DNA of 64,000 nt, taken from contig NC_134839.1 of NCBI RefSeq assembly GCF_965363235.1, forward strand, positions 92,027,743 through 92,091,742. The letters are read 5' to 3'. Made by a program: the position numbers and the translations under genes. Each line of letters opens with the position of its first letter. Within the stretch, counting starts at the first letter, position 1. Of the stretch, positions 8,411 through 60,262 are shown in pieces. This DNA is from Mytilus galloprovincialis. Taxonomy: Eukaryota > Mollusca > Bivalvia > Mytilida > Mytilidae. A model generated the notes under the pieces. It was not told the origin of the DNA and searched no databases. It saw only the letters and a program-made list of their open reading frames with translations.

Positions 8411-11295
8411 ATTCATTTTATTAGGACAATATTTATAAATATGACATTCATATTTTCTGTCCTGTATTATGTAAAATATCAACAAATAGAGATTAAACAA
8501 GCAGCCAGCCATCTGGGTAAAGTGTGTGCCTTATTATCTATATTAGCATATGGAGCACCATTAGCATCTTTAGTAAGTACAAACTTAATAGATTATAAGA
8601 AAATAAGAAGATAAGAAAAGAAGAAAATTATGTCTAATCATTTTATACTTTTGAAAAAAATGCAGGCGTGCATATATTTGTTGCTTTGGCAATAAGAACA
8701 TTTTCTGAACAGTTCTTATAACTGCCTACCATGAAATTTATATGTACTGGTAGCTAAAATTTGATAATCACTGGTGCAGCATTCCTGAATTGCATCGATT
8801 TACGTTAAAATGTTGTGAATGGTTTATGATGATAATATAAGTTTGCATTGAGCTACATGATTTGTAGCATGTAAATTTGTAATACTATTAGCTTTTCTTA
8901 AAGTGTTCAAAGGGCCCAGATGTTAATTGTTCTGAGCTCAGTCTGCTCTACCTCCTCATTTGACCATACTATTGAACACATTATATCACCAACAGCTGTA
9001 CTGACTATCAGGCAATAAATAATAGTCAATGAAATTTTCAGATAATTCACACACATTACCAATATATTAACATTATACACCCCTTGTTTAACTTTTTGTC
9101 TGTATGTTATTTTAAAGTTTTCTGATAGCAAAACATTAACGATGATCCTTTTTAATAGAATATTTAATATTTCTTATATAACTTATGATTTACCCCAAAA
9201 TTTTCTGTTTAGTAGTTTGAAATTATCATGATTATATATTCTGTTTATAGTTTGACTAAGATTAGTTAATGGTTATATATTCTGTTTATAGTTTGACTAA
9301 GATTAGTTAATGATTATATATTCTGTTTATAGTTTGACTAAGATTAGTTAATGGTTATATATTCTGTTTATAGTTTCACTGAGATTAGTTAATGGTTATA
9401 TATTCTGTTTATAGTTTGACTAAGATTAGTTAATGGTTATATATTGTCTTTATAGTTTCACTGAGATTAGTTAATGGTTATATATTCTGTTTATAGTTTC
9501 ACTAAGATTAGTTAATGGTTATATATTCTGTTTATAGTTTCACTAAGATTAGTTAATGGTTATATATTGTCTTTATAGTTTGACTAAGATTAGTTAATGG
9601 TTATATAATGTCTTTATAGTTTCACTAAGATTAGTTAATGGTTATATATTCTGTTTATAGTTTGACTAAGATTAGTTAATGGTTATATATTCTGTTTATA
9701 GTTTCACTAAGATTAGTTAATGGTTATATATTCTGTTTATAGTTTGACTATGATTAGTTAATGGTTATATATTCTGTTTATAGTTTGACTAAGATTAGTT
9801 AATGGTTACATATTCTGTTTATAGTTTCACTAAGATTAGTTAATGGTTATATATTCTGTTTCTAGTTTCACTAAGATTAGTTAATGGTTATATATTCTGT
9901 TTATAGTTTCACTAAGATTAGTTAATGGTTATATATTGTCTTTATAGTTTGACTAAGATTAGTTAATGGTTATATATTCTGTTTATAGTTTGACTAAGAT
10001 TAGTTACTGGTTATATATTCTGTTTATAGTTTCACTAAGATTAGTTAATGGTTATATTTACAGAAAGTTGTGATGCATACAAAGACAACAGAATGTTTAT
10101 CATTTCCATATATCTTCATGAATTTTGTCGTAGCATTAGAATGGGTGATATATGGACGTATATTAAATGATATTTATGTTCAGGTAAGGGTACTATTGGA
10201 ATTACTGCTACACACTTTCTTGACATACCAATTTCTGGTATGATATAATCAGGACTTTGTATTCTTTGCGATTGTTTTTTCTATGAATAAACAGTTTATT
10301 CCTTCTACAAGAAACCATACACAATAAACAAATAAAATAATGATTCAGCATCTTACATTGATTGTATAAATACATCCACAAAGTATTTTTGAAATATCAT
10401 TGAAGCTTATATTAAAAGATTATAATGATGCCTTACTAAATTGTAAATATTTCAAGAAATAGATAAGAGATCATCATCGTGGGGAAAGACATGAACATAT
10501 AGTCATTATAGGAACTTAAAAGATAAAAAGTCAATCTCTTTTAGAGTGGTTGTCTTTTTGTGGATATATTTCTTACAGCACACATATCGTGTTTTGATCA
10601 ATGATATTTAATCTTTCTTTATTTGACTTATTTTGGTGGACAAAATTTCAATTATTACTTTTAATCAAACACAAATTTCATGAGTTATTAAATCAGTGAA
10701 CATGTCAATTAGTTTTAAGAAAAAAAGACACCCTGCATAGCTAAATAGTGTAACACCGTTTTAACTGAATTGATTAAATAGGAATCATTTAGATTTTAAA
10801 ACAAATTACAATGTTTTCTGACAATTCAACCGTATAAAAAAATCAGTCATTTTGCTAGTTTGACTTTGATTTCATAGACTTTCACCTTTTATTTTGTCAT
10901 AATCACATCTTCTGTTTAAACAATTGGAGAAACTGCCAAAATCAGAAACCTTAATTCAAAGAATACAGACATCCTGGCCAGGAAAAAAAACCAAACAAAA
11001 CAAACAACAGCTTACACAAAGAATTTTATTAACTAGCAACACAAACCCTTGATTGAAATCAGTTTTGAATTAATTTTACAACTTCCAAATATTTGAAAAT
11101 GTAAATATGTTTTACAATCAATATTATGCATATTTGCAGATATATATCGGTTAAATTTAATGAAGATATATTTTTTTTGTTTTTCAGCTTCCAAATTTTT
11201 TAGGTTTTTGTTTAGCAGTGATTCAACTTGCATTATTTTGCAAATATCCATCAAAGAGTACATCATTAGACAGGACAATTACAGTGACAGCATAG
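8411..11295 (+). CDS. SWEET1-like bidirectional sugar transporter, 3' exons (partial)
   Basis: Three phase-0 exons, 8411-8572, 10064-10183 and 11188-11295 (TAG at 11293), encode the last 129 residues. SWEET (Slc50) proteins are small seven-helix transporters, built as two three-helix MtN3/saliva repeats plus a linker helix, that let sugars move down their gradient. Visible here are the linker end and second repeat: LGKVCALLSILAYGAPLASL, then a KVVMHTKTTECLSFPY segment matching the family's conserved K-V-x-x-T-K-S/T-x-x-x-(L/S)-x-(F/Y)-P region, then EWVIYG, and LPNFLGF in the last exon, matching the conserved PN-x-(L)-G signature. All introns are GT-AG. The N-terminal half (about 85-110 residues) is missing and presumably lies left of the window or was not recognised. 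The first intron shown carries a 41-bp minisatellite that runs into the acceptor of exon 10064. A possible AATAAA is at 11615. Confidence 0.88.
9225..10063 (+). repeat. 41-bp minisatellite, about 20 copies, ending in a splice acceptor
   Basis: The unit is TGACTAAGATTAGTTAATGG followed by TTATATATTCTGTTTATAGTT, 41 bp, with few substitutions between copies. Each unit contains a branch-point-like GACTAAG or CACTAAG about 30 bases before an acceptor-like TTCTGTTTATAG. The last unit changes to TTATATTTACAG and serves as the real acceptor of the SWEET exon that begins at 10064. Confidence 0.9.
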
Positions 11296-11689
11296 TTATT
11301 GTTTATAGTGAAATCATATTGTATTGTAACAAAGACATGTTTACAGTGAAATCATTTTCTATTCTATCATTGACATATTTTAGGGTATAAACTTCCTTAA
11401 GGTAGTATGGGAGTATAAAAGAAATAGTAGAATTTCTTTATACTATGCAAGAATGAAGTTTCTATCCAGATGTATAAAATTTAAATGAAAAATAATACAT
11501 CATTCAGCTTGTTTTAAAACTAGAGGTATTATAAAAACTTCATAATAGGAAAGATAATATATGAGGAACTATGCAAATAACACGGGAAAAAACATCCTCA
11601 AATATATATTTTGAAATAAAAAAGAAAATAGCTTTAGCAATTAGCCTATGAAAAATTATGTTGAGGAGGCACACATTTTCAAATCATTG

Positions 11690-12120
11690 AGATCTACCTA
11701 CTGGTCATTTACATGACTACTTAAAGGAGTCATTGCCCTTAAATGACAAATTTTACCTATTTTATACATTTGGTCTATTGTTATGAAAACTATAATAGAT
11801 AAACAGAAACTTTAATAGCAAATATGAACAGTAAAGAAAAAATCTACAAATAAGACAACAAGGCAGAAATTGTTGTACAACTCCTTTAGTAATGGAATTA
11901 TTGCCCTTTATGACAAGTTTTTGCCTAATATCATAAAAACTATAAAGATCTACACATGCTACAGACTCTTGTAATAGCAAAATTGATCAGCAATGAAAGG
12001 TCAAGAAATGACTCAAAATTTGAAGAAACCCTTAGTTGACTTTTTATAAGTGTGATTGCCATTAAATTGTTACTTATACTCCTGCACTACCTTAAAAAGA
12101 GATCTTGCCAAAATTATTTT
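11690..12120 (+). repeat. Degenerate E1-related monomers
   Basis: The phrases AAGGAGTCATTGCCCTT, ACAAATAAGACAACA and CAGTAAAGAAAAAATC, with their order, correspond to the E1 monomer phrases GGAGTCATTGCCCTTTATAG and AAATAAGTCAACA. Two degraded tandem copies seem present (about 11715 and 11890). It looks like an older, diverged member of the family; another lies at 45600-45925. Confidence 0.5.
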
Positions 12121-14830: not shown

Positions 14831-14917
14831 CAGCAGTTGTCGTTATATATGTCACATGCATTCAGATGGTGTTTTTGATTATGAGATTCACATTCATATG
14901 ACATAAAACTTGTTTTT

Positions 14918-15173
14918 ATGGCCCATTTATGGCCATTATGTTTTCTGGTCTGTGCGTCTGTTCGTATGTTCGTCCCAGGTTAAAGTTTTTGGTTGAGGTA
15001 ATTTTTGATGAAGTTGAAGTCCTATCAACTTGAAACTTAATAAACATGTTCCCTGTGATATGATCTTTCTAATTTTATTGTCTAATTAGAGATTTTATCC
15101 CATTTTCACGGTCCACTGAACATAGAAAAAGATAGTGCGGATGGGGCATCCGTGTACTTGGGACACATTCTTG
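14918..15173 (+). mobile_element. E2 element, minimal copy with one monomer
   Basis: It starts ATGGCCCATTTATGG after a T-run, followed by the usual TTATGTTTTCTGGTCTGTGC head, one GGTTAAAGTTTTTGG monomer, GGGGCATCCGTGTAC and the terminus GGACACATTCTTG followed by TTT. It is the shortest complete copy of the family in the window and shows that monomer number varies between copies. Confidence 0.75.
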
Positions 15174-16355: not shown

Positions 16356-16419
16356 TAATTGGTTATGATTTCCACATCGCAATGCCATACAACTAGTTGA
16401 GTGATGACCCATTTATATG

Positions 16420-18637: not shown

Positions 18638-18710
18638 AAAATTTTTGCAGTTGTATAATGTTATAACGTTCTTAGCATCTTCGTCGTTGTCTTGAGACAT
18701 TAGATAACCA
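18638..18710 (+). repeat. E3 element, truncated 5' fragment
   Basis: TTTTATACGACCGCAAAATTT followed by an AACGTTCTTAGC and GTCGTTGTC stretch matches the 5' end of the E3 element at 4700. It then breaks off and satellite-like sequence returns. The 3' half is missing. Confidence 0.5.
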
Positions 18711-19717: not shown

Positions 19718-22700
19718 ATGGCGACTGAAGAGTCAATTGTTGTCACTAAAGATGAAGTTCATAGTTTTGTCATCCGTTCCATGGAAGCTGTTGGCCTCAA
19801 ACTGAAACATGGAACAGTTCTTGCTGATCTAATTGTATCCGCTGAGTGTAGAGGACACGCCAGCCATGGATTAAACAAACTAGGTTAGATAATATGTATA
19901 CTTTCTAGCATTTATTATACTGAAATTCATCTGATACATATATACAACTCATTGCCTTACAATTTACCATAATGCTATTGCCATTTTGGACTGATTAAGT
20001 CTAACCCGACAGCATTCATGGTACATGAACTAGTAAGCAAGTAAAGAACGTTTTCTGCTCCATATACATTGTATTAAAGAACAAACATAAAGTGGACTTG
20101 ATGTTTTATTTTCATAGAACAATACATGAATGAAATAAAGTCCGGAATGACATCAACAGAAGATCTGGAACCTAGTGTCCTGAAAGAAACATCGGCTACT
20201 GCTTTGGTAGACGGTAATAATTTAATAGGTAAGTATACTTAAAGCTTGTACAGTAAACTGTTCATATGCTTCATAGAATACACATGGACATGGAACAATT
20301 TTGCATTGTATAGAAGTTTCGTGTGAAAAGTGCCAATAAGAAAAGGTCTCGCGTGCAATATGTATTATGTTTGCAAATTATTTCAATCGTAAGTCAGATG
20401 ATTAATACTGTACAGTTTGTTTTGCCTTTTTTTCAAGTCGTTGCTCTAATAATGCATTTTACTAGATTCCGACGGATACATTTACACTGAGAAATAAGCA
20501 TGTTCAAATGTGTAATGCACCATACTGGTCATACCGTCTGGCACTATTCACTGAACATGTCTGATGGTAATGCCTCGGTATATTCAGAAGTGAAACTAAT
20601 CTAATTTTCGTTACTTTGAAGAACCAACACATCATCTTTCGGTGACCGTAAGACATAACCGGACATTATGGGGTTCGAATTTTTAATAGCTTAGTTCACT
20701 GAACAATTATAAAAAAAAATTCCATTTTTGATGGAGGCTTGAATTGAGAGTAGAATACATGTATTATAGTTTGTATAATACACGGTAAAACTTTGTAAAA
20801 TTTGGTATAAATGGACCCAAACATACGCATGTACAAATAAAAGGTTTGATTTAATTTATTTGAAACTGATTTTAGCATAAATCTTTCAGGACCTTATGTA
20901 GCTAGATTCTGTATGGACTTGGCAATACAAAAAGCAAAATCAGCCGGTATAGGTATCGTCTCATGTCGAGGTAAGATCATAGTACTCTGACAAAATCAGC
21001 CGGCATAGGTAACGTCTCAAATCGAGGTTGGATAATAGATTTCAGACAAAGGCTTAATATGTTTTAGCAGAGACATATATACACATATATGTCTCTGGTT
21101 CTAGCCAGCAATCAAAATCAATTGGGTAATGGATTTTAAAAATAAAATGTTTTGTTTCTGATAATATAGAGTTAATTTGACCTGCTCAACTCGTTCTATT
21201 TATATTGTAACTATTATTTGTAAAAAAGAAATGAAAATATATTAAAAGAATATGGGATACTTAATAGCCTTGTCATACAAATGATTATTAACGGTATGTT
21301 CTGTTTGGCAGGTTCTAACCATTTTGGTACAGCTGGGTGGTACAGTTTACGCGCAACAGAACAAGGACTTATAGTAAGTGAACAATTTGTTCAAAAAAAG
21401 GTTTCGATTTGACTTTACATGCATCTAAATTTGAAATTATATGCTTACCCTACACGTATTTTTAAAAAGTCCTCGAAAAAATTAGTGATTTATAATCAGT
21501 AGATACAAAAAACTATTCAGCAGCCACTTTAAGGTAGGAACTTCTTACATAATTTTCCTAACAAAATTTGTATTCAATGCATCACAGATGATTAGAAATG
21601 AATAATCATTAAAGTTTAATGTTTTGTTTGATACTTTAACTCTAACTAGATTTTTATTATAATTTAGGGAATGGCTTTTACTAACACCTCTCCGATGCTG
21701 GTCCCAACACGAGCTAAGTCGGTAAGTTACATTGCATTTCAACACACTTTATGTGCTTTATCTAAACACCAAAACAAAAGTGATGCTAAATATTAGTTTT
21801 CGTTTTCTTAATTTAGATTTTTCTATCTAATCTTTTGAAGAGGTAACATTTTTCTGAAATATGATTCATAAATAAGATAAGGCGAAATAAAAAAAAATAA
21901 TATTGCTTAACATTGATTGTTTCAAGTAAACATATATAACATAATTAAACAACTATGATGAGTCTGAAAGTTTAAACACACACACATCTGCCTATATGAT
22001 AATCCATTTTATTTATTTTTATATTACAGAAAGTATTAGGTACAAATCCCTTAAGTCTTGGTGCACCAGCACAAAACGGTGATAGTTTTGTTCTAGATAT
22101 GGCTACTACAGCAGTAGCAATGGGAAAGGTAAAAAATCATGCAATAATCGATCAGGGATAATTTAAGTCATCTGCCAAAGTATATAAACTACTCTTGAAC
22201 TGCCAGGATCTTGTAAAGTCTCTCATGGAGCAGAACAAATAGGTTGCCCTATAGTTATCTGAGATTATAATTTTAGTTCATACAAAACTCTGAATGACTT
22301 TAAAAGTATGGCACATCTTTGCTACTTTTTTTATTTTTAGAATAACAGCTAAAATCTGTAATCTGCAATATGTGCAAACATAGAACAAATGCATATTTTC
22401 TAAAAATTTACATAATCAGATAGACTAATCTTGACTAAAATAGGCAAACAAACATGCATACACACAGAGAGAAAAAACGCATTGTTTATTTATATCAAAG
22501 AGGAAATTTTTATTGTACTTTTAATTATAGTGTGAACTGAAAGGAAGACGAGATCAACCACTTCCTACAGGCTGGGCAGTTGATGCAGATGGACATGTAA
22601 GTTGTTGCTTTTTTTGTTATGTAAATGGACTTGTTAGTTTTTACTTTATTAGTGTTTATGGACTTGCACGTTGTTTTTTGTTTGTGTAAATGAACATGCA

Positions 22701-25700
22701 AATGTTTTCTTTATTTGTGTAAATGGACATGTTAGTTGTTACTCTGTTGGTGTAAATGGACATTTAAGTTGTTGCTTTATTGGTGACTATGGACATGTAC
22801 GTTGTTACTCTGTTGATGTAGATGGACATGTAAATTGTTACTCTGTTGATGTAAATGTCCATCTTAAGTGTTGCTTTGTTAGTAACTATAGACATGTAAG
22901 TGGTTACTCTGTCGATGTTAATGTCCATGTTTTTTATAACTATTTTGTGTGTGTGTGTTTCTCTGTCCTGTGTGTTCTCCCAGTTATTTGTATTGTAGTC
23001 CTTCTATGTAATGTTGTCATTTTAATGTTATATTTAACATTGCCATAAAAGCTGGCGGTTTGGCTAGCCACAAAATCAGGTTCAACCCACCATTTTTTTT
23101 TCTTAAAATGTCCTGTACGAAGTCAGGAAAATGGCCATTGTTATATTATAGTTCGTTTCTATGTGTGTTGCATTTCTGTTGTGTCGTTTTTCTCCTCTTA
23201 TATTTGATGTGTTTCCCTCAGTTTTAGTTTGAAACCCGGATTTGGTTATTCCTCAATCGATTTATGAATTTCGAACAGCGGTATACTACTGATGCCTTTA
23301 TTTAAGTGCTGCTTTGTTTCATGGTGACTTTGGACATGTAAGTTGTTACTCTGTTTATGTTAAGTTGCTTTGTTGGTGACTATGGGCATGTACGTTGTTA
23401 CTCAATTGCTGTAAATGAACACATAAGTTATTGCTTTATTAATTGGTGTTGATTGACATGTAGTTTGATGTTTTGATGATGTAAACGGAAATTTAAGTTG
23501 TTGCTTTATTGGTATAAACTGAAATGTAAGCTATCCATTTGTTGATGTAAATGAACATGTAAGCTGTTGCTCTGTGGGTGTAAATAGTTTGCATCTACGA
23601 TGTATGTCGTAAAAGAACGATCTTTTTTCGCTATATATTCTCGTATGGGGGTTACACTAAAGACCTGAAACTTGACATGAAAAGACCTGAAAAGACCTGA
23701 AAAGATACGACTAAAATTATTCAAATTGCAATAACTTTTTGATTATTGGATGGAATTTCTTCAAGTTGGAATTTTATTAATTGTAAATATTTATATTTCA
23801 TTAAAATTTTTAAATTTTAAATTAAAAACAATTTTTTTATGCCAAAAGTTGGACCTGAACGGAGAAATTAAAAGACCTGAAGGGACCTGAAAATCTATGT
23901 CGGACTAATTCTAACTACAATAACTTTTTTAATATTCAATGGATATCTTTCAACTTTTGATTTTGTGACACAAAAAGTTAATTATAATGATAATATAAAA
24001 AAAAAATATGTGAAAAATATTGTTGGGGTGTCAAAACTCGGACCTGAACGGAAAATTCAAAATCTGAATGAGCCTAAAATTCCACATTTTTTTAAAACGA
24101 AAATAATAAACAAAATATGGTTGATAACTTTTCATGTTCGATGTCATTTGGTCTCTTGTAGAGATCTGTCTCATTGGTATCACACCACATCTCTCTAATT
24201 TTTATTGACAGAAGATACTAATATGTATAAAAAGTAAGAGCGTTGATCTGAATTCACTGATTATTTGATATATGCTTATATTTTTAATTTGTAAAGTTTA
24301 TACTTGAATTGGTGACCGAGCAATGTTTAGTTCGTGTATAAAATAATCAATGAATATGTTGCAAATTCTCTTGACAGTATCAATAATGATTGATGTATAT
24401 GTTAATTTGTTTGTTGGGCGTATGACATTTGCGCCGATTTTGAAAATTTTCATTCTTTCATTTGCGCCGATTTCATTTTTTCATTTGCGCCGATTTTATT
24501 TTTTCTCCTAATTGGATTTACAGGTAAGTTACAGGTAAGTTAATACTTTTACATGGGCTTAGCACAGAGTATAAAGACAAATTAAGCAACATTGGTAAAT
24601 AGCTATCCCTTTTTTTCGGGTGACCATTCCTCCCCCCAAATGAAGTCGATGACTGCTTCACGTTTGACAATATGTCTGATTTGAATCCTTCATTTTAGCA
24701 TTAACAGAGTGCTTTTATCTTAGGTTTTTATTTCTTGACTTTAAAGTATGTAAATATATATAGCTTTTATATTGATTTATCTTGCTCGAAACCCTACTTC
24801 CACCTACAACCGACACACGTTCATGTAATTAAAACATTCCAATCGACGAACTCTTTAAATTACATATGATCATAAGCAATACTAATACTTTCATTTTATA
24901 AATACAGCAGTTCACGACCACCTTTAATATAGAATAAGAATAAAATATATATTAATGTAGTTTAAGCAAGTTGTATTAGTTTGAATAATTTCAACGGACA
25001 ATCTTCCCTTTAGGTTCAGGATTCATCAATAACAATGTACTTTGTTTTCAAATATGTTCCTGTATAAATATAAAGTCATTCGTTCTCTTCAATAGACTTT
25101 TGTCTAAAATAGAAACAAATAGGAAAACAATGTTTTGCGAGTTTAAATACAACTACTCCTATAATCCATTCATGTCTTTTATTTCACCGACAAAACCATT
25201 ATATTTTCGATAAAATTCTTTATAATTTCAATGATATATTATACCTTTCCTATAACAAAATTCATATTTCAAGGAGAATGATTGAAAACAGTTAAATCTG
25301 ATCGCAGTCTTTTCAAGCAAATTTACGTTACTTAATTTTCCGTTCAGTTAAACCCCTCGTATGGTGATTAATTTTTCGCCCAGGTGAGACCATCATGGGA
25401 AGTCAAAATCATTATAGACCCCTGGAAGTAGTAGACTTGTTAAATGCATTGTAAACAATTCCATGTATTGGTTCTAATGTGACATTGACTTTTAAAAAAT
25501 ATATAGCACTACCGTCTAAATAATTGTTTATACAAAAAACGAAATTTTGTTAATGACACCTCTTTCAAAGTTTTGTAAGCGCCGATCCTTCACGTACACA
25601 TCTTTCGGGATATATATGTAATTAATATATTGCTTATTAATATATTTTAAAGCACTTTCAAATTTATTTATTTTTTGCACAGGAAACATACCAATTCAAA

Positions 25701-31004: not shown

Positions 31005-31010
31005 AATAAA
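31005..31010 (+). terminator. Likely polyadenylation signal of the dehydrogenase gene
   Basis: AATAAA lies 437 bp after the stop codon; a second AATAAA is at 31055-31060. The downstream convergent ELP2 stop is at 31332, so the two transcripts end very close together or overlap. Confidence 0.45.
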
Positions 31011-31312: not shown

Positions 31313-31331
31313 TTGTTAATTTAAATTATGA

Positions 31332-34300: not shown

Positions 34301-37300
34301 TATCAAATATCAGTTTTATAACAGTGACATATAAGAAAAACTCCACTTCAGTTCTTATATGACAGAAATAGATTTATCGGAATTCAGAGAACTCTCGCAT
34401 TTTATCAAAACTGGGGAATTCCCTCTGAAGTGTTTCTAAATTTATAAAAACACTAAATATAAATACTGCTTAATTCTGATTTTCCGTGTTGTTAAAAACA
34501 CGCATATAAGTCAAGGGAAATATCAAACATGAAGATTATGAGAAGAACATTAAAGGGAAGTAGTTTTAAGTTCAATCCTTTTGTTTGTTTTTACCTTTTA
34601 AAGCAAGACAATCATAAGAATCTGAGATGTTCCTTAATGTTTAGAATAAAACGGTTGACGTAAGGGCATGGCCCTGAGTCAATGGTATAAGTCTACAGAT
34701 TGCTTGAAAGCAATCGTATCCCAAAAATGGCTGGATCCATTTCTGAATTTTTGCTAGGTTAGTTTTGTTCAATCAAAGGATACTGTTGATCTAGTTTTGT
34801 TATCAGTGTCCAATCGCCTTGGTTATCTGATGGTTTCCATGAATAAAGAAGTATTTCACCATTTTCTACTCCAATAGATATCAAATATCTACAAGAAAAT
34901 CAATGGTAAATTAAGGATTGGCATTTATGGCCTGCTAAATTTCTTTGTTTTTTTGTCACTGAATTAGAGAATAACATTTTTCAAATGAATTACACAATTT
35001 GGTTAACATACAAGCTCTTATCTATTTAAAACACACTGGTCATCAGATAAGCATACATTTGATAAATTGCTATATGTTTAAGATACACCTTGAAGGTGTT
35101 ACCTCGAATTGGTGTATCTAATTTACAAGAAGATATTATTGTCATGCTTTCACTACTATAAGAGGGGGGTGTCTTTCAGCAATTTGACCATATACAGTAC
35201 TCCTTTTTTTTCTCTTTTTATTTTGACATTAGTACTTTTTGGCAGATGTATGGCTGTTGTGTACGACAAGAAATTAGAACTGACATACTTATCTGCATAA
35301 CAAGCTACAGGTGGTAGATGTATAGCTGTTGCTGCATCACCTACATCTATTACTGACTGTGGCTTTAAGAGTATATCTCCTGATGATAGGTCTGGTCTTA
35401 ACCATACCATTACCTATAAACAGATCCTTATTTATATTGGCTGACAGATTTCTAGCAAATAGCAATGTGACAAAAAGAACTTGTTTTAAAGAAATTTGTA
35501 CTTAAGGTGAGAAGTAAAGAAATTAAAAAAAAATCTCAGAAAAATTACTTCTTGAAGCAATACATGACTATCTACTGTCTGCAGTTATGTAGTTAGATAA
35601 GGAATGATATAGCAAGAGGCATCATTTGTAAGGCAAAAAAATACAATGAGATTTTTTAAATTGAGCAATTCTTTCAAATAAATGAAAATTTATCAAACAA
35701 GTATAAACTGGCTATAAGGCAGAGAGTAGTAGAGAACTTATCAAACCTTTTTATCTCGAGATGCTGTTAAGAAATATTTATCATCATGTGACCAAGCACA
35801 TGACCATATAATCCTTGTATGGGCTGTATTTGATTTATTAGTCCCAGATATTCTAGTAAACAGCGACTCTGAAATTAAAATCAAAGAACTGGATTTTAAC
35901 ATTATTCATAATTGCTTTTTGTTTTACGGTTTTAGCATATATCACATTTCCTTATTTTTATACATAAAAAAAATTCTTAAATCTACAAATTTTAATCATC
36001 ATTTTGTTATTAATTAGCAATATGGCATGACACAGGTAGTATAATATGCGCCACTCCACTTTCTGTGCAATGGTATAAATGCATTCATCTACGAAGTATA
36101 GCCAAAGAGCTGTTCATGATAGACATGTATATTCTACTATATACACCTTTGAAACTGTATTTGAAAGTTAAAAGTTGGTTGTAAACAGACACACTATATT
36201 TTCATAATAAAGTGGAAGAAATATCCCATGCAATTTATTATATTTTTACTTAAACATTTGTTAGTAACCTATGTGACATTAGTCTATATAGTTTAAGTTG
36301 TATATAAAGGTCATGCTCTTGACAGAGAATTTTGTAATAGAGGTGACCTCTGAATTCAGGTTCCAAATGCAAAGTTACTGGAAAATATTTTTTGAAACTG
36401 AAAAGGCAGGCTTTTGCTTTATAATGTTTTGCGAATAAAGATATATATAATGAAGACTATTTGATTGCTCAGTTTTAAACAATAAAATCCTAAAGGAATG
36501 GGAAACAGCTGCATAATTGATACCTTACAATGATTAAATTATATTGAACAATCCATATTCTCAGCTATACATACCATTCTGACTATTTTCATCCCTCTTC
36601 CTATATAACATCCATGTCCTGTCTCTAGACACTGTTAGTAGGTAATTACCATTGTGAGAGAAGGCCATCTGTGTCACGGTCAACGTGTGACCTTCTAATG
36701 TGCAAATCTGATTCCATGTTGTTGTATCCCATAATATAACTCCAGCAAAATCTACCTTGGATGCCTAAAGAACATCATGGTGAAATATCATTGTCTAGGA
36801 AATTAAAAGTTTTCCATTTGACATACAACAGAAAACTTCAGGAGAATAATTTCTTATCATAATAATAGTCTTTTATTCAGAAGCAATACAGCTTATAGAA
36901 TTTACATATACAAGTATAATAGCATCAGTGAATAATTACATACATGTTTTATTATTACAAACAGTTTGTATCAATGGCGGAGAATGACATCAAATAATAT
37001 AAATAATGAAATATAAGTATAATATTATGAATAACGAATCTTATCAGCTAAATAAAGGTATTTACCTAGATTGTTAAGCTCTTTGATGTTATAAACAGAC
37101 AATAATTGTACAAGTTTGTAACTAGATGGTTTTTTCCAATAAAATGGTTTTATATATGTTTTCCTTACATCAGAATATTTCTCACATACTAAAATATAAT
37201 GGTATTCATCTTCAATCATGTTTTTATCACACATATTACGATAATCTGTTTTCTCTTTCAATATTACAAAATCTACCAGTTTCAATGTTAAGGCAGTGTG

Positions 37301-46300: not shown

Positions 46301-49300
46301 TGATCGGTTATTTGACGAAAAAATATCTTCAAATACATAAGATGTCCGAAAAAAAGTAAATGAATTGTCAAGGAGACAATGTAATATCTATAAAGTTCCA
46401 ACAAACCTAAATGACGATTGTGATACAAACATGGTCGGAAATTAATAATATAACAAATATAGCCTTTGTATGAGGTCAATACAGGATATATCAACCTCGG
46501 ACTTCGTCCTCAGTCAATATACTTCTTTCAGGTCAATATATCCTTGTATCGACCTCACACAAAGGCTATATTTGTATAGTATACAACTGTATAAAACTAT
46601 TGAACATCTAGGTTGAGATCTTTTCCATGAGATTGCTTTCACTTGCAAGGGAAAGGTAAACTAATTCAAAGCTTGCTATAAAGTGTGGAAAACTGCAAAT
46701 AATTGAAGATTGTAGTGTCAACTCTTTGTCTTTTTTGGTGCATGTATCTTGTCCTAAGTATTAAAATTTCTAACCAAATTTGCTTGAAGATTAATGAGGA
46801 CATGATAACACACTTAAAATAGTAACATAAACATTTCTAAATTATGACATGATTTGTATGTTTTCTATTCTAAATTCAAAGATTTTCTTCAATAAATTTA
46901 GTTACAGATGCTTGAACAAATTTGAGGGAAGTGCCTTCCTGATTATAAAATATCCAGTGTTTTTCCATATTTACTTGAAAAAGAGACAGACAAACAGGGG
47001 TAAACCAGTATACACCTGCCCACTTTTCTAAATGGTTAAAGATAAAGGATAATTTGGTAGGTATGGAAATGCAAAACTACTAATTTATATTGTACCTCCA
47101 ATTTTAAATTGAAATGTATTTTCTTTCATCTTTATTTCCTCATCTAATGACAATTCCTTGACAGTCTTTACAATATTATCTTCTACAGATCGTCTAGAAA
47201 ATCTCCAGATTCTGATGAAGAAGTCCTGTGCTGCACTAGCCAATATAATATCTCCCGTATCTAAAACAAACAAATAAGACAATGTTCTGTCTGAATGGAG
47301 CTTAGAACTATTATTACTGGCTCTTGAGAAAAAACCATTTGAGCCTATGCAAGAAGTTGATTTAAAGCATGTAACTTTAAAAACAGTGTTTTTAGTTGCC
47401 ATAACTACATTCAGAAGATGTAGTGATTTGCAATGTCTCCGTATTGATGACAAGTCAATGAGAGTTCAGAGTAAGGGTATTACTTTTGTAAGACATGGCT
47501 TTGCCAAGCAAGATAGACAAAAACATTTTGGAGAAAAATTATTTGTTCCCAGTTTTCCAGAGAAAACTTTAATAGATCCAAAAAGAGGATCAAACTAAGA
47601 ATTTTCGGGGAAAGTTGAGAGAATCAGAAAGAATTAAGCTTTTTCTGGGAATAAATGAACTGTACAAACCGGTATCAACAGCAACTATTTCAAGTTGGAT
47701 TGTACAGGCTATTGGAATAACTTATAATGATGACAATATGAAAGTAAATGCACATTCCACACGTGCTATAGCTCCAAGTTGGTCTTTGTACAAGGGAGCT
47801 TCTTTGAAATCAATTTTAGATTCTGCCAACTGGGCAGTTGAATCAACATTCGCAAAGTTTTATTTGCAAGATTTTGATGCCACTAAAGTTTTAGAATAGG
47901 ATATAAGCATACAAATTCATTTATTTGTATGATATTTTATTTGTATTTGCAGTATAACATGTAGCTGTATATAGATGTAAATAGTGGGTTTTTTGTTACG
48001 GTGGTAGTATTTTATCCTGTTGGAAAGATATTTGTTTGTGGTTTTTTTTTCTGGAAGAGAAGGAAATTCATCCACCACCGTTGAATGAATTCAACACTGC
48101 TTAAGTTGAGATTTTTAATAAACGAGTTATACCTACCAGTGAAGGGGCCACCACCATCCCCTAGATGCATTTCTAGATATGTGTAGATTGAAGGAACATG
48201 AAAAAAAATCAAAACTGATGAGAATACCTGTATATTTACCTGCATTGGGGTGTATAACACAGGTAGGGTGATTGGACATCCTAGGGATGTTTTTATTTTT
48301 AGATCACCAAGATGTTTGCGATGAGAACTAGTTATTGTGAATTATATTCTAATTTAATAAATGTCAATTTTCACTGATAGGGATAATGATTGTTATTAAA
48401 AATCCATTATAAAAAGATACATACCATCAATTGTAAAATCAATTGCTCTAATCCAGTCCTCATGTCCTTGAAGAGACATTATTCTTACAAACTAAAATAT
48501 AAAGCAAATTGATATTTTTAGATATTTGGATATTGTTGCCTTCTATTTATTTTTGATACATATTTAGGCAGTATACCTTATATTATCAAAAAGTTTTATA
48601 TTCTCATAATTAATCCAAATATCTATACATATTTATTTTTTAAAATTGAATTTGTGAGAGATCACTTATAACTATATATTACATATCATATGCATATATA
48701 ACAAAAATAAAATTATATGAAGTTTACAACCGTTTGAATGAAATCACATGTGGCTGGTTCTTGACCAAAAGTTGTTATTTGAACAATTGCAAGATATAGT
48801 CAACAAAAGAGGAAAGTTGTCATCAATATTTCAATCCAGCATTATACTATGAGTAATTTAACATTTTACTGTAATTAGTTGTTTCATCTGTAAGTACCTT
48901 TTCACTTTGTTCAATAAATATGTGTATTTTCTGATCATCACAGCCACATGCCAGCATAGGAACTGAAAAGTACAAAATATTTCAAAATCATCATAATTAG
49001 TACCAACATTCTGATTAGAGATTTGACACTTGTGATATTTAAACGATAAATTTACATTCAAAATTGATCTATAACTTGTCATTATCCTATACTTGTCAGT
49101 GTAAACTTTATAACAATTATCAAGTCAATATCTTTAAGCATGACGAAAATATATTCAAATTTTATCCTTAACATTAGCGAGGGATAAAATCAAGGAATAT
49201 CATGCATGGCCCAGTAAATATTGTGTAAATTTACAACAAATCTATGGTTTCCATGAATTATTTCGATTTTAATCAGACAAAAACGGTAATTAAAAAACTG

Positions 49301-52300
49301 AAGTGAGGGTTGGTATTCGGTGTGTGTTGCTGTTCTTTTTTACTTCCCATTAGATAAAGCTAATCAATTCTATTAAACATGTGGCTTGCATGACTTATTT
49401 TGTAAATAACTGATAGAAAACATATGTTTAGTTTTCAAACCAAAGATCTGCAATTTTCGATTTATATGTTTTTCTCATAAGCAACTGTCAAATCCAAAGT
49501 TGACATTTTGTAACTAAGGAGCCCCCTAATTGACTCGCTGAAATCAGTAACTATGCGAATAATGCAACAGAATAGAAAATAAAATAAACTATACCTCAAA
49601 AAACTTGTACATTAAATCTTTTTGTTGTGGATCTGAATAAGGTCAAAAGTGGTGTAGTCTGTTTTAAATTTCAATTTTTAAAATAAAAAATTGGCATAAC
49701 GTTTACAAATAGGCTCTGATACATGTGAATTTACGTTGGAGGTATACTGTAACATCCATTATTATGTATATCTCTGAATCTGCGCTAAGTTTAGATATAT
49801 CGAAAATTTTATCACGGTGTTGATTACAAAGCGAAAGAAGCATGTCATATTAGAATTATGAGTTTATAGGGTGGCCAAGTGGTCTAAGTAGTTACTACTG
49901 TAATCACTAGCCAGTCAACACTGAGGTTGTGAGTTCGAACCCCACTCGTGCGGGTGCACTTGACTCTAATCTTAATTGACTAGGATTGTCAGTTTTTCTA
50001 TCGGAGGTCGTGGTTTTCTCCAGGAACTCCGGCTTTATCTACCAATAAAAACTGGCCGCCACAAAATAGCTTAAATGCGGTGCTTAAAAAGTGGCGTTAA
50101 AACACCCAAAAATCAAAATTACATCAAATTAATTTACAGTATACAAAAGTACTATGATATCTATCAGTCTCAGCTCATATGTCTTACCTGAGAATGCATG
50201 TACAAAAGTTATCATTTCATGTGTCTTACCTCAAAATGTATGTACAAACATTATCATTTCATATGTCTTACCGTTTGTATCAGGTATAACAGTGAAACTC
50301 AGATCCAGAACAAATCCAGTACCAAACTTGTGAGTCTGAAGTAACTGGAAATCTGTATTAAAATAAATCCATTTTATATTAACGTGTATCAACTTGATAA
50401 AGAACAGGGTGTTTTATGAGTATATTTTAGCATTTTTAACTGTAAGTTATATTCCTTTTAATCAAAACATAGATTCAAAGCACTGTAAGCGCTGAAGGCA
50501 GTTAACCAAAAACCAGGCAAACGTAATTATGTGCAGTGGCGGATCCAGAAATTTTCATAAGTGGGGGCCCACTGCCTGCCTAACAGGGGACCTGCTCCAG
50601 TCATGCTTCAGTGATTCCCTATATAATCAACCAAATTTTTTCTCAAAAATGGAAAAGGGGGGGGGGGGCACTGAAAAACCCTCTAAATCCGCCTCTGATG
50701 TGGCATTAAACATTCATATATTGTACATTTATGTTTATCTAATGAATTAATTATTAAGGCAAATAATTTATATATTTTCAATAGCAATGAATATATAAAT
50801 GTATATTTTTTATGGTGAGTCTGCAGTGGTACAAGTTCGCAATGATTGTAGTTGTTCTAGTTGGTAGTTAACGTTGGTTTTAGTTGACTGTTAGTAGTAC
50901 GTGTTGACTTAGTACGAACATGTAATAGTATGAATGGACTGGTTTCCCTGTAAAGAAAACTGAGTTTGTGTTCTATAGTACAATAGTTATGCGACACAAA
51001 TCAGACAAATGTTCACTACTACAAGGATCAAAGGTGAGGTCTGACTGACCTGCCCATAGTAAATGTAAATGATTTGTTATATTGTCCCATATATGAATAT
51101 ATATGGTTTAGGGGTGGGGATCTCAAGGGTTTTCAAGTTCTCAAACAGGAAGGGGTAGGGTGACCCCAGGGACTTCCCCTATATTTCAATTGATTTGTTA
51201 TATTGTTCCATACATGAATATATATGGTTTAGGGGTGGGGATCTCGAGGGTTTTCAAGTTCTCAAGGGTTTTCAAGTTCTCAAACAGGAAGGGATAGGAT
51301 GACCCCAGGGACTTCCCCTATATTTCATTTGATTTGTTATATTGTCCCACACATGAATATATATGGTTTAGGGGTGGAGATCTCATCGGTTTCCAAGTTC
51401 TCAAACAGGAGGGGGTAGGGGGACTCCCCTATATTTCATTTAATTAGTTATATTGACCCATACATGAATATATATTGTTTAGGGGTGGGGATCTCGACCG
51501 TTTCGTAAGTTCCCAAACAGGAGGGGGTTGGTCACCCCATGGACTCCCCTTATATTTCATTTGATTAGTTATATATATAGTCCCATACATGAATGTATAT
51601 GGTTGAGAGGTCATCCGTTTCAAAGTTATCAAAAATAAAGTAAGAATCTTCCAGCTACTTTAACTGGTCCTTCAAAATTGAGAGAAAAAAAAATACCCCT
51701 TCAAAATTGCAGTAATATGTTTACACTTTAAAAGCATCTTACATGCATTATCAATATTTATCACTGATAAAGAAAATTTAAACTGTGACCAGGAACATAT
51801 ATATTGTTAGATATACTGTTCCCAGCTGTCACATTGTATTGGATTTTGACATTAAAATTTGTCAAAAGTAATTTTGAGTTTCTGTTTAAAATATTTTCTG
51901 CTTTTTCTTTCTTTTACATATATCTTTTGGTTTTCAATTCTAGAGTTTATATTCATTTACCATGCATAGATGTATTTTGTCACCTGCCTGGATTCGCCAA
52001 AAACCCGGAATTACCCTTATCCGCTTCCGGAATCGGATCCGAAATTGTAATTGTCTTTTCACGGCAGCCATTGTCATTGTGTTCCAATGTTGTTTTTGTC
52101 AGTCAGATACGATTTTACTCGTATTAACACATTTTTTGTCGGCGATTTTCTGTATATAGCTAGCGATTGAACAAAATTGACATCGCTGTCATGAATAATA
52201 CTGATTAAAATAAGTTTTGAGATCGTTGATTTGGAGACTTTGGCGAAAAGGTTTGCAAAGCTATTTTTTATTTTCTTTCAAATGGAACTGAGACTACTAT

Positions 52301-58300: not shown

Positions 58301-60262
58301 CATGTTTGGTATTTTAAAAGACAAACATAAAATATTTGTAGTTAAAAGCGGTATCTAAGATTATGCAATTTATAATTTGAAGCAGTCTGATGGCTTATTT
58401 ATACATGTAGTTTGAAGCAAAAGCTTATTTAAAGTTTAAAGCATTGAAAAGCATTGGCACATTTGATTCATAGTAAGGATAAGGATATTTTGATAAAATC
58501 ACAATAATTTGTTAATCAATTTCACAATTAAGGTAGCTGAAATGAACGTTTGATGCCTTATGGTAAAGGGCATTACTCCATGTACCCTCATTTACATGAT
58601 TAAGCTACATGTATAGGCATTTAAGAGGATCTTACCCAACCTGTTGATTTGTCACAAATATCCTATATTTTTTGGTCAACTTAAGGCTCATCATAACCAA
58701 CGGACAAATATGGCTGTATTTACATGCCAAAAACTACTCTGAGTACAGATTTAATTAAAGTTAAATGCATTTTGTTTCAGAAAGATAAAATCTCTTTTGG
58801 ATTTTGATGGGCATTTTTTTTCCTTCATGCAAAAGGTGTGAAAATTAACTATTAAAGTTGTGGTACAACTTTGAGATGCTCCCTCAGGTAAAAAACCGGT
58901 TTGTATTGTTTTGACTGTCCTTAATTGACATGGACAAGAGGTATCTGCACAACTATAGGTGAGTTAAAGAATTTATCTGAGTCAGTGAGTGGACAGTATC
59001 AAAGTAATTCCAAACAGCAAAGGTAATTCTGTAAACAGAGTAGTTTTTGAGGTGAAAATATTTAAACAGTTTTCACAGAGACCCATCGATTTCTGCATTT
59101 TGACTTTCATTTTCAAAGATTATCATGTGACCACGAGAAAACAGTGCAAATGACCATAATGTAACGCCTCGTTCATTTACGATGCAAGTTAACTTAATGT
59201 TTGAGAGCTTCCGACTGTTATAGTGGTCGGAACTAAATGCTTAATACCGATCTCCTGTAAAGGAGGTTAAAAATCGTGGTTAGCTTCTAAATGTTAAACA
59301 TCAATCTCCTATAAAGGAGGTGAAAAAAGATAAATATTTGCATATTTGAGTCTCGGGACCACGAACTCTCTTGTAACTTGACGTCCATTGAAAGTGAAAG
59401 TCAAAATGCAAAATTCGATGGGTCTCTGTGAAAACTGTTAAAATATGGAAAAATAAAGGTTGGCAGGAAGGTAAAACTTACATAAATGAAGAAATAAATG
59501 AAAAATGAACAGATTGATGCCCGATTTACATAATTCCAAGGCCCTCAATCGGCACCAGAAGCGACGAAGCGGCACATCTATTTTGGGTGGGCAAATATCC
59601 ACTTTTTGATATGGGACGAGCTCTGACGTCCCACGGCCCCAACTTGTCTGGCAAAACAGCCGTTGGACGTCAGAGTAATCTCGGACTAGCGTTACTCATC
59701 CGTTGAATGTATGTTCGTCATCTGTTCTGTCCGTTATGTTTCCGTTTCTCGTACGCTGCATAACTGTTGTGTCTCCTTTAAGCATTCTTTACATGTCCGT
59801 TTTATTCGTTCAGTACATCAACAATTTTGTCAAAGTACAACTTTTATTTTAATCGATTAGGCGTCCATTCCTGCTATCCGGTAAGGTGTGACCAAGCCTT
59901 AACACACACACACAAACGCTAAATAAGTTCCCTTTGACTAACATAATAATATTTTTTGTAGATCCCTCCCCTATACTACTACATGCCTTTTCCTCAGAAA
60001 ACTCTGCCTTCCCCGGGGCCCTCCCCCCCCCCCAAAAAAAAAGGTAAGCGACCGACATAACACCTCGTCGGACCACTATGGCACTAAGCAAGAACCTATG
60101 CATCCCCTCCCCCTTTTTTCCGCCTTCAATATTTACCTCTGGTTGGTAAACTGTTACAGAACGACATGATCCGAAACATATTAACCCATTAAGTCCCCAG
60201 TCTGCACAATGAGGGGTGCGATTACACCCAGTGCTGATGTAACATGTTTCAATAGCTGTCAT
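31332..60262 (-). CDS. ELP2: Elongator complex protein 2 (complete, 20 exons)
   Basis: Exons in transcript order: 60262-60137, 57528-57435, 56178-56105, 55623-55470, 50352-50272, 48962-48898, 48491-48425, 47260-47096, 46040-45945, 45146-45046, 42741-42619, 40749-40594, 39637-39446, 38614-38458, 37790-37660, 36764-36575, 35868-35747, 35413-35289, 34888-34784, 31452-31332. They total 2445 nt and 814 aa, close to vertebrate ELP2 (about 826). ELP2 forms two seven-bladed WD40 propellers and scaffolds the Elp1-2-3 subcomplex of Elongator, which modifies wobble uridines of tRNAs. Signatures seen: [144 protein letters not shown], and [13 protein letters not shown] at the C-terminus. Phases agree throughout. 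Exon 2's acceptor (TTCTTTTAAAG) is the least certain. Exon 19 would read into a stop if its donor (GTATCC) were missed. Confidence 0.94.
31754..32833 (+). mobile_element. Hairpin-ended element family E5 with 161-bp monomers
   Basis: It starts AACCGGATTT after a T-run; the exact inverse AAATCCGGTT lies at 32800-32809, followed by the hairpin GCTGTCGTTGTGACAGC (32811-32827) and the terminus CTCTTG then TT. A GGCGGGAGGGCGGGC block follows the head. About five monomers repeat at exactly 161 bp (landmarks 32064, 32225, 32386). Short open frames recur with the monomer and are not genes. It lies in the last ELP2 intron. Confidence 0.8.
33484..33500. repeat. Short palindrome TGCGTGAG-T-CTCACGCA
   Basis: Eight-base arms with a single central base, in the last ELP2 intron. 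A further half copy (AATGCGTGAGA) lies near 33398, which suggests a dispersed repeat rather than a functional site. The rest of 32834-34783 is AT-rich intron in which I recognise nothing. Confidence 0.55.
36861..37370 (-). pseudogene. 3' remnant of a non-LTR retrotransposon (LINE) reverse transcriptase ORF
   Basis: On the minus strand, two overlapping frames contain pieces of the C-terminal region of an invertebrate LINE ORF2. One frame reads [16 protein letters not shown]. After a frameshift the other reads [19 protein letters not shown] and [20 protein letters not shown], ending with a stop at 37025. The cysteine/histidine-type segment EDEYHxxLxC is characteristic of these C-termini. A 3' tail of about 160 bp follows, with AATAAA-like sequences. 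The catalytic reverse transcriptase and endonuclease domains are absent, so it is dead. It sits in ELP2 intron 15 in the gene's own orientation. Confidence 0.75.
38811..39105 (-). repeat. Interspersed SINE-like repeat, copy 1
   Basis: Landmarks are CTAAGTCAGGAATCTGATGT, TTGAATGGTTTTACACTAG, GGGGCCCTTTATAGC, GCTCTGTGTTGAAGGCCGTA and GTTGTCTCATTGGCACTC. The same series recurs at 57110-57390 in the same direction and, inverted, at 62545-62770. It is non-coding. I see no convincing polymerase III boxes, so the class is uncertain. It lies in ELP2 intron 13. Confidence 0.65.
39990..40375. repeat. Minisatellite of CTCTTGGCCATGGTGG type
   Basis: Variants of TTTTTCTCTTGGTCATAGTGG and TTCTCTTGGCCATGGTGGTGC recur about ten times with irregular period (roughly 30-46 bp) in ELP2 intron 12. 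The array gives spurious open frames on both strands. Confidence 0.75.
41156..42429 (-). mobile_element. Hairpin-ended element family E1, uninterrupted copy
   Basis: On the minus strand it begins AGCTCACCTGGCCC with the hairpin partner GGGCCATGTGAGCT and ends GGCTCTAAAGAGCC-type stem-loop, then CTAG followed by TT. Two monomers of about 500 bp (landmark TGGCCGCCATGG-like motifs near 41735 and 42240) match the monomers at 2978 and 3479. This 1.27-kb copy gives the undisturbed structure of the family. It lies in ELP2 intron 11. Confidence 0.8.
42882..43887. mobile_element. Non-autonomous DNA transposon with 33-bp terminal inverted repeats
   Basis: The left end GGCCACGGTTTTTTTATTTG, continuing through TTGGTTTACGGAT, is matched in inverse by ATCCGTAAACCAACAAATTA and AAAAAACCGTGGCC at the right end, with one or two mismatches over 33 bp. 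The total is 1006 bp. A CCGACC-rich motif follows each repeat inward. The inside has no transposase, only a 60-codon frame of low complexity. The superfamily is undetermined, and I could not fix a clean target-site duplication. It lies in ELP2 intron 10. Confidence 0.75.
43970..44060. repeat. Hairpin motif CGGTGCC-TAG-GGCACCG of retroelement type
   Basis: ATCGACATGTTTCGGTGCC, TAG, GGCACCGTCATCAGGAT: a seven-base-pair stem (44011-44027) preceded by a GTTTCGG and followed by GTCATCAGG. Motifs of this kind commonly occur next to animal retroelement ends. No associated reverse transcriptase was recognised in the adjacent sequence. Confidence 0.4.
45600..45925 (+). repeat. Degenerate E1-related copy
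   Basis: ATTGCCCTTAAATGATAAATTTT, ACAAATAAATCAGCATGAC and an end reading ACAAGCTAAGTATGACCCTT then CAGATGAACTAA parallel the E1 monomer and E1 hairpin end, with many substitutions. It is an old copy in ELP2 intron 9. Confidence 0.45.
46455..46573. repeat. Long imperfect inverted repeat (about 37-bp arms)
   Basis: AAATATAGCCTTTGTATGAG, continuing GTCAATACAGGATATAT, is answered in inverse by ATATATCCTTGTATCGACC, continuing TCACACAAAGGCTATATTT, around a 45-bp centre containing CCTCGGACTTCGTCCTCAG. It is a foldback repeat in ELP2 intron 8. Confidence 0.7.
47278..47900 (+). pseudogene. Tyrosine recombinase remnant (DIRS/Crypton-type mobile element)
   Basis: Two frames, separated by a frameshift and stops near 47598-47615, spell the catalytic domain of a tyrosine recombinase. 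The first has [17 protein letters not shown] (first Arg box) and [13 protein letters not shown] (Lys region). The second has [32 protein letters not shown] (the H-x-x-R box), SANWAVES and FAKFYLQ (Tyr). All four catalytic positions can be seen, but the frame is broken, no start precedes the first piece and no other element genes remain. Domains of this kind occur in DIRS-like retrotransposons and Crypton transposons; I cannot decide which. It lies antisense in ELP2 intron 7, and its left edge is only 17 bp from the start of ELP2 exon 8. Confidence 0.8.
49868..50115 (+). repeat. tRNA-derived SINE
   Basis: The head GGGTGGCCAAGTGG contains a perfect A box TGGCCAAGTGG (49872-49882); the B box GAGTTCGAACCCC is at 49931-49943. 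This gives a complete polymerase III promoter of leucine/serine-tRNA type, although the cloverleaf is not intact. A body with GTGGTTTTCTCCAGG, CTCCGGCTTT and AAACTGGCCGCCAC resembles conserved central domains of invertebrate SINE superfamilies. The 3' end is GTGGCGTTAAAACACCC and an A-rich tail. It lies in ELP2 intron 5, antisense to the gene. Confidence 0.8.
50176..50274 (-). repeat. Three-copy 42-bp array of the ELP2 exon 5 splice donor
   Basis: On the minus strand, the real donor GTAAGACATATG begins at 50271. Copies GTAAGACACATG and GTAAGACATATG begin at 50229 and 50187, each 42 bp further. Every unit carries AAATGATAA and TTTGTACAT. All three keep a usable G-GTAAGAC donor. Use of the second or third donor would add 42 or 84 nt, in phase but with an in-frame TGA in the first added unit. 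Confidence 0.88.
50534..50697. mobile_element. Small TIR element (CAGTGGCGGAT type MITE)
   Basis: The left end CAGTGGCGGATCCAG and right end CTAAATCCGCCTCTG are imperfect inverted repeats. ATGTG directly flanks both sides (50529-50533 and 50698-50702), consistent with a target-site duplication. It is 164 bp long with a G-run inside and no coding capacity. The ends are of a common hAT-like type. It lies in ELP2 intron 4. Confidence 0.65.
51070..51620. repeat. Minisatellite with units of about 120-130 bp, four copies
   Basis: Each unit has TTTGTTATATTGTCCCATAC, ATGAATATATATGGTTTAGG, GGTGGGGATCTC, TCAAACAGGA and ACTTCCCCTATATTTC, beginning at about 51072, 51193, 51330 and 51448. A partial fifth is at about 51570. 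One unit has an internal duplication of TTTTCAAGTTCTCAAGGG. It lies in ELP2 intron 4. Confidence 0.8.
52288..52322. repeat. Imperfect copy of the CTGAGACTACTATAAC hairpin
   Basis: CTGAGACTACTATAAC is followed after three bases by GATATAGTTGTCTCAG, its inverse with two mismatches. The first arm is identical to that of the hairpin at 26182, so the two loci share a repeat family. The surrounding 51900-52720 is unrecognised intron sequence. Confidence 0.65.
53731..54250 (+). pseudogene. hAT-like transposase remnant
   Basis: Overlapping frames shift one into another: [15 protein letters not shown] in one, then [13 protein letters not shown] and [19 protein letters not shown] in the next. This order (a P-R-x-C-x-R-Q segment followed by a Y-(W/Y)...F-(I/L)-D-H-(M/L)-I-x-E-L-x-x-R-(L/F) helix) is typical of hAT-related and THAP12/zinc-finger-MYM-like transposase-derived proteins just before the dimerisation domain. 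The catalytic core is missing and the frame is broken. It is antisense within ELP2 intron 4. Confidence 0.7.
54511..55418. mobile_element. pogo-like Tc1/mariner MITE with TA target-site duplication
   Basis: The left end CAGTCGAACCTCGTTGTGTC and the right end, inverse CAGTCGAACCTCAGTGTGTC, are near-perfect terminal inverted repeats. TA flanks both sides (54509-54510 and 55419-55420). The 908-bp inside has further GTCGA/TCGAC motifs near both ends and no transposase. Termini of the CAGTCGAACCTC kind and TA duplication are those of pogo/Tigger-type elements. It lies in ELP2 intron 4, directly upstream of exon 4's donor side. Confidence 0.82.
57110..57390 (-). repeat. Interspersed SINE-like repeat, copy 2
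   Basis: The same landmark series as 38811-39105: CTAAGTCAGGAATCTGATGT, TTGAATGGTTTTACACTAG, GGGCCCTTTATAGC, GCTCTGTGTTAAAG and AAGTTGTCTCATTGGC. It ends about 45 bp before the ELP2 exon 2 region, in intron 2. Confidence 0.65.
57880..58080. repeat. Minisatellite with units of about 53 bp, four to five copies
   Basis: Units of ATATATTTCATTGATAAATT, CCTTACATTGTTCATGGG and AAGGATGT are nearly identical; the last is a shortened unit. It lies in ELP2 intron 1. Confidence 0.8.
59062..59442. mobile_element. Foldback MITE-like element of about 380 bp
   Basis: TTAAACAGTTTTCACAGAGA, continuing CCCATCGA, at 59062 is answered in inverse by TCGATGGGTCTCTGTG and AAAACTGTTAAA ending at 59442. Inward, TTTTGACTTTCA is also mirrored. 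The centre has two CTCC-TGTAAA-GGAG small palindromes. No coding capacity. It lies in ELP2 intron 1. Confidence 0.65.

Follow-up and report, generated by a model that had tools for sequence, protein, structure and literature searches.

Tandem arrays across 5′ splice sites in AT-rich mussel genes resemble exon stuttering

Exon stuttering is the tandem copying of part of an exon, together with its splice site, through the adjacent intron. The term, which we could trace to PMC12954441 alone (February 2026), is used there for chicken dot chromosomes, where the pattern is linked to GC-rich DNA, GC-linked replication stress is suggested as the cause, and extensive within-species length variation is presented as a main feature. 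Here we describe arrays of the same build in the mussel Mytilus galloprovincialis. They were seen in a 64-kb stretch of its 1.38-Gb genome (NC_134839.1, positions 92,027,743 to 92,091,742), called the window below, which has a GC content of 26-36% in 2-kb blocks and contains three genes: a SWEET gene, the dehydrogenase gene Ldh_2 (LDH) and, on the minus strand, the Elongator gene ELP2. We put at roughly 0.7 the probability that these arrays, and others outside the window, expanded locally in tandem from a first duplication that straddled an exon-intron border, i.e. that they are exon stuttering in AT-rich DNA.

There are also older and looser parallels. The minisatellite of the human IFI6 (6-16) gene provides multiple splice donors (Turri 1995, via PMC4526556) and, as in the mussel, its tandem units carry these donors at the exon end. 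With stuttering published in 2026 and this minisatellite in 1995, the original prediction that junction arrays may be an unrecognised route to intron length variation and alternative splice sites can no longer be called novel. IFI6 is a single human gene whose downstream donors are reported as used, whereas in five of the six mussel donor arrays such use would bring in stop codons. In human segmental duplications, internal tandem repeats at exon-intron boundaries likewise alter gene structure (PMC2812944); those repeats vary between recent paralogs and form novel introns, whereas the mussel units sit at existing ones. In a potato RNA-dependent RNA polymerase gene, a duplicated unit likewise straddles an intron-exon boundary and takes splice signals with it (PMC4974935), but that duplication made a new intron and the mussel duplications lengthen an old one. 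Our literature searches, few of which named molluscs and which covered titles and abstract openings of the matches listed, found no mollusc case. What is new here is the known stuttering structure at low GC, with the cases counted by our screen lying at donors.

The likeness to the chicken arrays is close. There (PMC12954441), the source is no more than 1 base away from the exon border in >90% of cases and the exon part is tens of bases long; the copies number from a few to tens and are mostly detectable with Tandem Repeats Finder (TRF). The mussel arrays are alike in these respects. In the mussel, the source lies 0-5 nt from the exon end in 5/114 donor-side introns, a rate to be set against 190/5,572 introns (3.4%) on the chicken dot chromosomes (PMC12954441). 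The copies are of local origin: genome searches that skipped very common words reported no second locus for the LDH 33-bp or the SWEET array, and the others copy their own exon. The differences are in setting and in side. A GC-rich setting, which is an association in PMC12954441 and not part of the definition, is absent in the mussel, where affected exons have 35-48% GC and affected introns 30-34% (sampled exons 39%, introns 31%) and the affected contigs exceed 90 Mb. Since stuttering is found in AT-rich genes on large contigs, high GC is not a necessary cause. The mussel cases split into five on the donor side and none on the acceptor side, while PMC12954441 leaves the sides unsplit, each of the two words occurring once in its main text. 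Finally, length variation in chicken is within-species (PMC12954441), and our data, being from one genome, give variation among paralogs only.

Arrays that meet the ends of exons

The original prediction described four arrays, with units of 33, 41, 42 and 56 bp, that start or end exactly at a splice site. All four are real, as each was called by TRF and each can be read in register against the splice sites. The word "exactly" applies to one of them and fails for the other three: two arrays span a donor, one begins 1 nt before a donor and the last falls 6 bp short of an acceptor.

Both spanning arrays are in LDH. Exon 3 (20890..20970, plus strand, by spliced alignment) has its last 36 nt within a 56-bp unit that is present twice (20935..21046, plus strand) and spans the donor at 20970/20971, with 36 nt of exon and 20 nt of intron. 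Exon 7 (22531..22596, plus strand) encodes a segment ending in GWAVDADGH, and there is a resemblance between its last ~18 nt and the 33-bp unit of an array of ~10 decayed copies (22579..22918, plus strand, outer limits set by eye; 22589-22908 and 9.6 copies by TRF). This array spans the donor at 22596/22597, with an exon share of 8 nt by TRF or, by eye, ~18 nt of exon and 15 nt of intron; a second block of the same unit was located in the same intron by genome search and converted to window coordinates (23302..23585, plus strand). In ELP2, a 42-bp unit present 2.3 times (50175..50272, minus strand, TRF and register) starts 1 nt before the donor at 50272/50271 of exon 5 (50272..50352, minus strand, spliced alignment). 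The SWEET array, with 20 copies of a 41-bp unit (9228..10057, plus strand, TRF and register), ends 6 bp before the acceptor of the exon that lies 3′ of it (10064..10183, plus strand, spliced alignment); 19 of its copies carry TTTATAG and one carries TTTCTAG, both of which score below the real acceptor. A fifth case had been proposed in ELP2 (35241..35333, minus strand), where 18/20 bases of the exon at 35314-35333 match the intron at 35241-35260, 73 bp apart. The duplicate is present (score 30, where the best of 500 single-base shuffles reached 28), but it is isolated, weak and single.

The pattern was first seen in the window and is the reason for its choice, so only other DNA can test it. 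Our independent sample is the 200 kb flanking the window, plus 82 kb around exons of the myosin family, which was picked for its many exons; neither part was chosen for repeats. In this sample, an FkbM-like gene has a donor array of a 100-bp unit (74 nt exon + 26 nt intron) in 80 copies with a TRF match of 96%, which makes up 8 kb of a 10.7-kb intron. Among the myosins, an array on C10 has 15 copies of a 60-bp unit that consists of 53 nt of exon and GTAAGTT. It belongs to the second of two adjacent myosin heavy chain genes (G000:C10:38817733-38851433), and only to that one, although the exon structure of the two is alike in the fetched parts. A 60-bp unit with the same breakpoints occurs in 2.0 identical copies on C9, and in total four myosin paralogs carry 15, 2, 1 and 1 copies at this one donor. 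The minus strand of C9 has a further, decayed array of 47 bp in 3.1 copies with ~34 nt of exon, for which the donor position is taken by analogy from the paralogs. The original suggestion that arrays change intron length is supported by the FkbM-like intron and by these myosin copy numbers. The four myosin paralogs are also material for tracing the growth and loss of decoy splice sites.

Acceptor arrays do exist, because a 133-bp unit in six copies spans an acceptor (23 nt intron + 110 nt exon) in a kinesin gene (G000:C3:107861400-107862560); the donor of the same exon has a weak 25-bp array. This locus (L051) was found by its array and is not counted. Overlapping kinesin matches ~115-118 bp apart at G000:C1:40016930-40017332 suggest another tandemly copied exon.

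Across the six donor arrays the exon parts of the unit measure 1, ~18, ~34, 36, 53 and 74 nt and the intron parts 7-41 nt, so the splice site is not a constant breakpoint. The protein sequence is conserved at the exon copy in LDH and in myosin (judged against human MYH7), and therefore the exon is the source of the copies. We envisage that a segment of ~30-130 bp would first be duplicated in tandem, its ends variable, as the register shows. The exon-side copy would keep the protein, while the other copies would become intron and could grow to tens, shrink or decay; copy numbers do differ among the myosin paralogs, and the direction of change is inferred. The intronic copies supply decoy 5′ splice sites; these, and the later loss of some of them, can be read in the sequences described below.

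How often arrays and splice sites coincide

We modelled a screen on the published one for exon stuttering, comparing each exon with its own flanking introns and using shuffled introns and introns of other genes as controls. Copies of the exon end were found in 5/114 downstream introns, the end of the exon-side source and that of the modelled exon being 0, 0, 0, 5 and 0 nt apart. Two of 117 upstream introns held copies, neither from the exon start, and border-touching copies of the exon start were found in 0/117. The two sides (5/114 versus 0/117) differ with a Fisher P of 0.028 when the myosin pair is counted as two. The five best matches reach 48-135 bits and all exceed the 42.1-bit threshold of PMC12954441, where search settings may differ. 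Above the threshold, introns of unrelated genes gave 39 matches for 12,882 donor-side pairings and 55 matches for 13,572 acceptor-side pairings; these are counts of matches, the pairings include same-gene ones, and myosin paralogs were treated as unrelated. The LDH exon 7 and ELP2 arrays escape the screen because their exon parts are only ~18 nt and 1 nt.

The original prediction held chance placement at junctions to be unlikely, and whether this is so depends on the null. If arrays are placed uniformly within introns, 4/10 window arrays of period >=30 touch an intron end against 0.28 expected (P ~1e-4), as do 5/13 of period >=20 against 0.31 expected; in the independent sample the figure is 3/9 (period >=30) against 0.12 (P 3e-5). 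Placement strictly inside introns was discarded as a sole test, being too favourable to the finding. Under the fairest null, in which a unit may fall anywhere, the effect is modest: in the window, four junctions are hit against 0.96 expected for periods of 30-120 (P 0.012) or 3.06 for periods to 500 (P 0.37). The independent test has 170 junctions (84 donors and 86 acceptors). Four of its donors lie in arrays against 0.85 expected (period 30-120, P 0.01) or 1.47 (period to 500, P 0.058), with P between 0.007 and 0.18 over every period limit tried; none of the 86 acceptors does (0.88 expected). With both sides together there are 4 against 1.73 (P 0.094) or, with periods to 500, 2.97 (P 0.35). 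In all data, including the post hoc window, 7 donors are hit against 1.28 expected (period 30-120, P 0.0003) and 1/117 acceptors against 1.3, and for all junctions with periods to 500 the count is 8 against 5.4 (P 0.17). The claimed recurrence at exon-intron boundaries is supported for donors, where it reappears outside the window, and is not supported for the sampled acceptors, with one array hit and no border copies among 117.

Some frequency results speak for background duplication alone or temper the reading as exon stuttering; donor strength is taken in the next section. Arrays of period >=20 cover ~10% of the intron bases of the window. On this coverage 6.4 of the 61 window junctions are expected to have such an array at a distance of 10 bp or less, and 5 do, the fifth through an A-rich 21-bp array close to an acceptor of ELP2. 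The independent sample gives a strong deficit, 3/143 against 28-30. This deficit arises because long arrays dominate the bases, and since a single 8-kb junction array does so, coverage is inadequate as the sole null. A TRF-free measure of self-similarity found no junction excess in the window, which tells against enrichment; with a centre of 40 bases, its lowest threshold was reached by 4/61 junctions against 11.5% of 4,456 intron positions. Where arrays do exceed random placement, they do so modestly. The myosin pair on C10 and C9, with its common breakpoints, may be one event, and if it is counted once (3 donors) the independent P rises to 0.053 for periods of 30-120 and to 0.18 for periods to 500. 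The SWEET array, whose unit is without any exon, is perhaps a plain intronic minisatellite.

Counts of 9-mers over the whole genome extend these points to sites whose exon-end status is not visible. Pairs of the donor word MAGGTAAGT at a spacing of 33-63 bp number 594 per 25,410 single occurrences (2.34%), which fails to separate it from the control AGTGATAGM (398/18,567, 2.14%); two further controls give 0.54% (TGAATGGAM, 236/43,421) and 1.20% (MGATAGTGA, 157/13,054). The acceptor word TTTTACAGR gives 943/84,659 (1.11%) and its reverse 780/107,601 (0.72%). Such pair counts are not decisive, because a few long arrays dominate them. We also counted by eye, among the matches listed, arrays of at least two linked pairs; the counts are small and cover as controls the reversed donor and MGATAGTGA, leaving AGTGATAGM, the control of highest ratio, uncounted. 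In the same span the donor has 15 arrays, the reversed donor 6 and MGATAGTGA 2, so that donor arrays are about fourfold those of the controls per single occurrence (P 0.0014 and 0.04, respectively). On the listed part of C1 there are 9 arrays of the acceptor, compared with 6 of the donor and 2 of the reversed donor. There, per single, the acceptor exceeds the reversed donor 2.3-fold, and the donor exceeds the acceptor 2.2-fold (P 0.11). As the acceptor word is also raised and the donor does not clearly exceed it, a donor bias is not established genome-wide; the mussel case does raise the question of such a bias in stuttering.

Two rival explanations bear on these figures. The first, which we find quite possible if somewhat short of an even chance, is that in a genome rich in arrays tandem duplications land evenly, some of them on junctions, and that exons cut arrays off there, so that array ends would lie at splice sites without any preference. 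It agrees with the coverage nulls, the lack of excess in self-similarity, the unit-anywhere counts with periods to 500 and the narrow lead of donor 9-mer pairs over their best control, but leaves unexplained the donor counts for periods of 30-120, the asymmetry of the screen and the donor 9-mer arrays. The second is that 5′ splice sites are hot spots of duplication, e.g. because polymerase pauses or R-loops form there, and that the breakpoints spread over tens of bases. The donor excess in the unit-anywhere and 9-mer array tests would be expected of such sites, and exon parts that vary from 1 to 74 nt fit a hot region rather than a fixed cut. That said, this modest excess is in part post hoc, the same asymmetry would follow from a selective filter, and the acceptor 9-mer is raised too; we regard hot spots as unlikely. 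A broader proposition is that eukaryotic genes in general are prone to exon stuttering, as an instability that centres on 5′ splice sites and does not depend on GC; in an AT-rich invertebrate with large chromosomes it would proceed about as often as on chicken dot chromosomes and keep lengthening introns by adding decoy donors. This proposition is tentative, and we are inclined to doubt it. Background instability in an array-rich genome, combined with a splicing filter, may account for much of the pattern. For the arrays that we read as exon stuttering, the most likely mechanism is general tandem duplication, with a splicing filter that leaves donor-spanning copies in the intron.

Decoy donors and the persistence of arrays

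If arrays are tolerated, this would be since the first donor, adjoining the real exon, is mostly used; acceptor-spanning copies would set decoys before the exon, which may have produced the donor bias of the sample. Strength does not by itself give this use of the first donor, because many decoys equal or exceed the real site. Both downstream copies in ELP2, GAG/GTAAGA and CAG/GTAAGA (the slash marks the junction), outscore the real donor ACG/GTAAGA, and decoys about as strong as the real donor make up 77/79 in the FkbM-like gene and 8/14 in myosin C10. Donor use is a suggestion drawn from the sequence. These are the donor-related points to be set against exon stuttering as we read it.

It had also been proposed that selection preserves arrays only where they supply redundant splice signals. 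Extra donors might make splicing safer or yield useful isoforms, and the IFI6 minisatellite, described as giving used donors (PMC4526556), speaks for this. In the mussel, one could point to the two strong ELP2 decoys, to the FkbM-like copies, which keep GT in 78/79 and GTAAGT in 76/79, and to LDH exon 7, where the frame stays open for ~30 codons beyond the donor. However, translation past the first donor reaches a stop codon before the next one in LDH exon 3, ELP2, the FkbM-like gene and both the 60-bp and 47-bp myosin arrays, i.e. in five of the six donor arrays. Some decoys are lost (CTAAGT) or weak: in myosin C10 4/14 are without GT, the second copy at LDH exon 3 is weakened to GTTGGA, and those of the 47-bp myosin array are weak. 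LDH exon 7 keeps GT in 5/9 intronic copies; its row of the decoy scoring was out of register and is unused. Judged on the sequences, redundant splice signals as a benefit are not supported, and selection for the arrays appears very unlikely.

Another possibility is that the arrays are remnants of intron birth by tandem duplication of an exon segment bearing AG/GT. The units do hold exon and donor together, as in a model reviewed in PMC3443670. Intron gain of this kind expects copies at both intron ends, and the mussel donor arrays are without this where the acceptor is visible: they stop well short of it (the acceptor of the 47-bp myosin array lies outside the fetched piece). Moreover, the myosin intron is older than its array, because four paralogs share the intron with 1, 1, 2 and 15 copies. 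We consider this origin extremely unlikely.

Gene models and neighbouring features

We placed the exon-intron junctions of the window with guide proteins and a spliced aligner of our own making, and the window counts rest on 30 introns and 61 junctions. Left out of the counts were exon 12 of the LDH model, exons 8 and 21 of the ELP2 model, six SWEET exons judged spurious, every TEX10 exon beyond number five, DPEP exons 1 to 4 and myosin exons with a score <40. SWEET was later remodelled with six exons, and LDH exon 8 was kept despite its weakness. SWEET intron 3 in the independent sample extends into the window.

The intron between SWEET exons 3 and 4 also holds several arrays with units of 135-253 bp (window 1495-7654), some of which have a common TTCAGGTTAAAGTTTTTGG motif. 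Within an ELP2 intron, two overlapping open frames lie on the plus strand at window 47278-47899; we take them to resemble a Crypton-like tyrosine recombinase. Inverted copies of one frame occur at L012 7453-9522, and this frame presumably resembles the GIY-YIG nuclease of a Penelope-like retroelement. An array at L004 ~7038-8075 translates to a repeated block of 18 residues, with both strands open.
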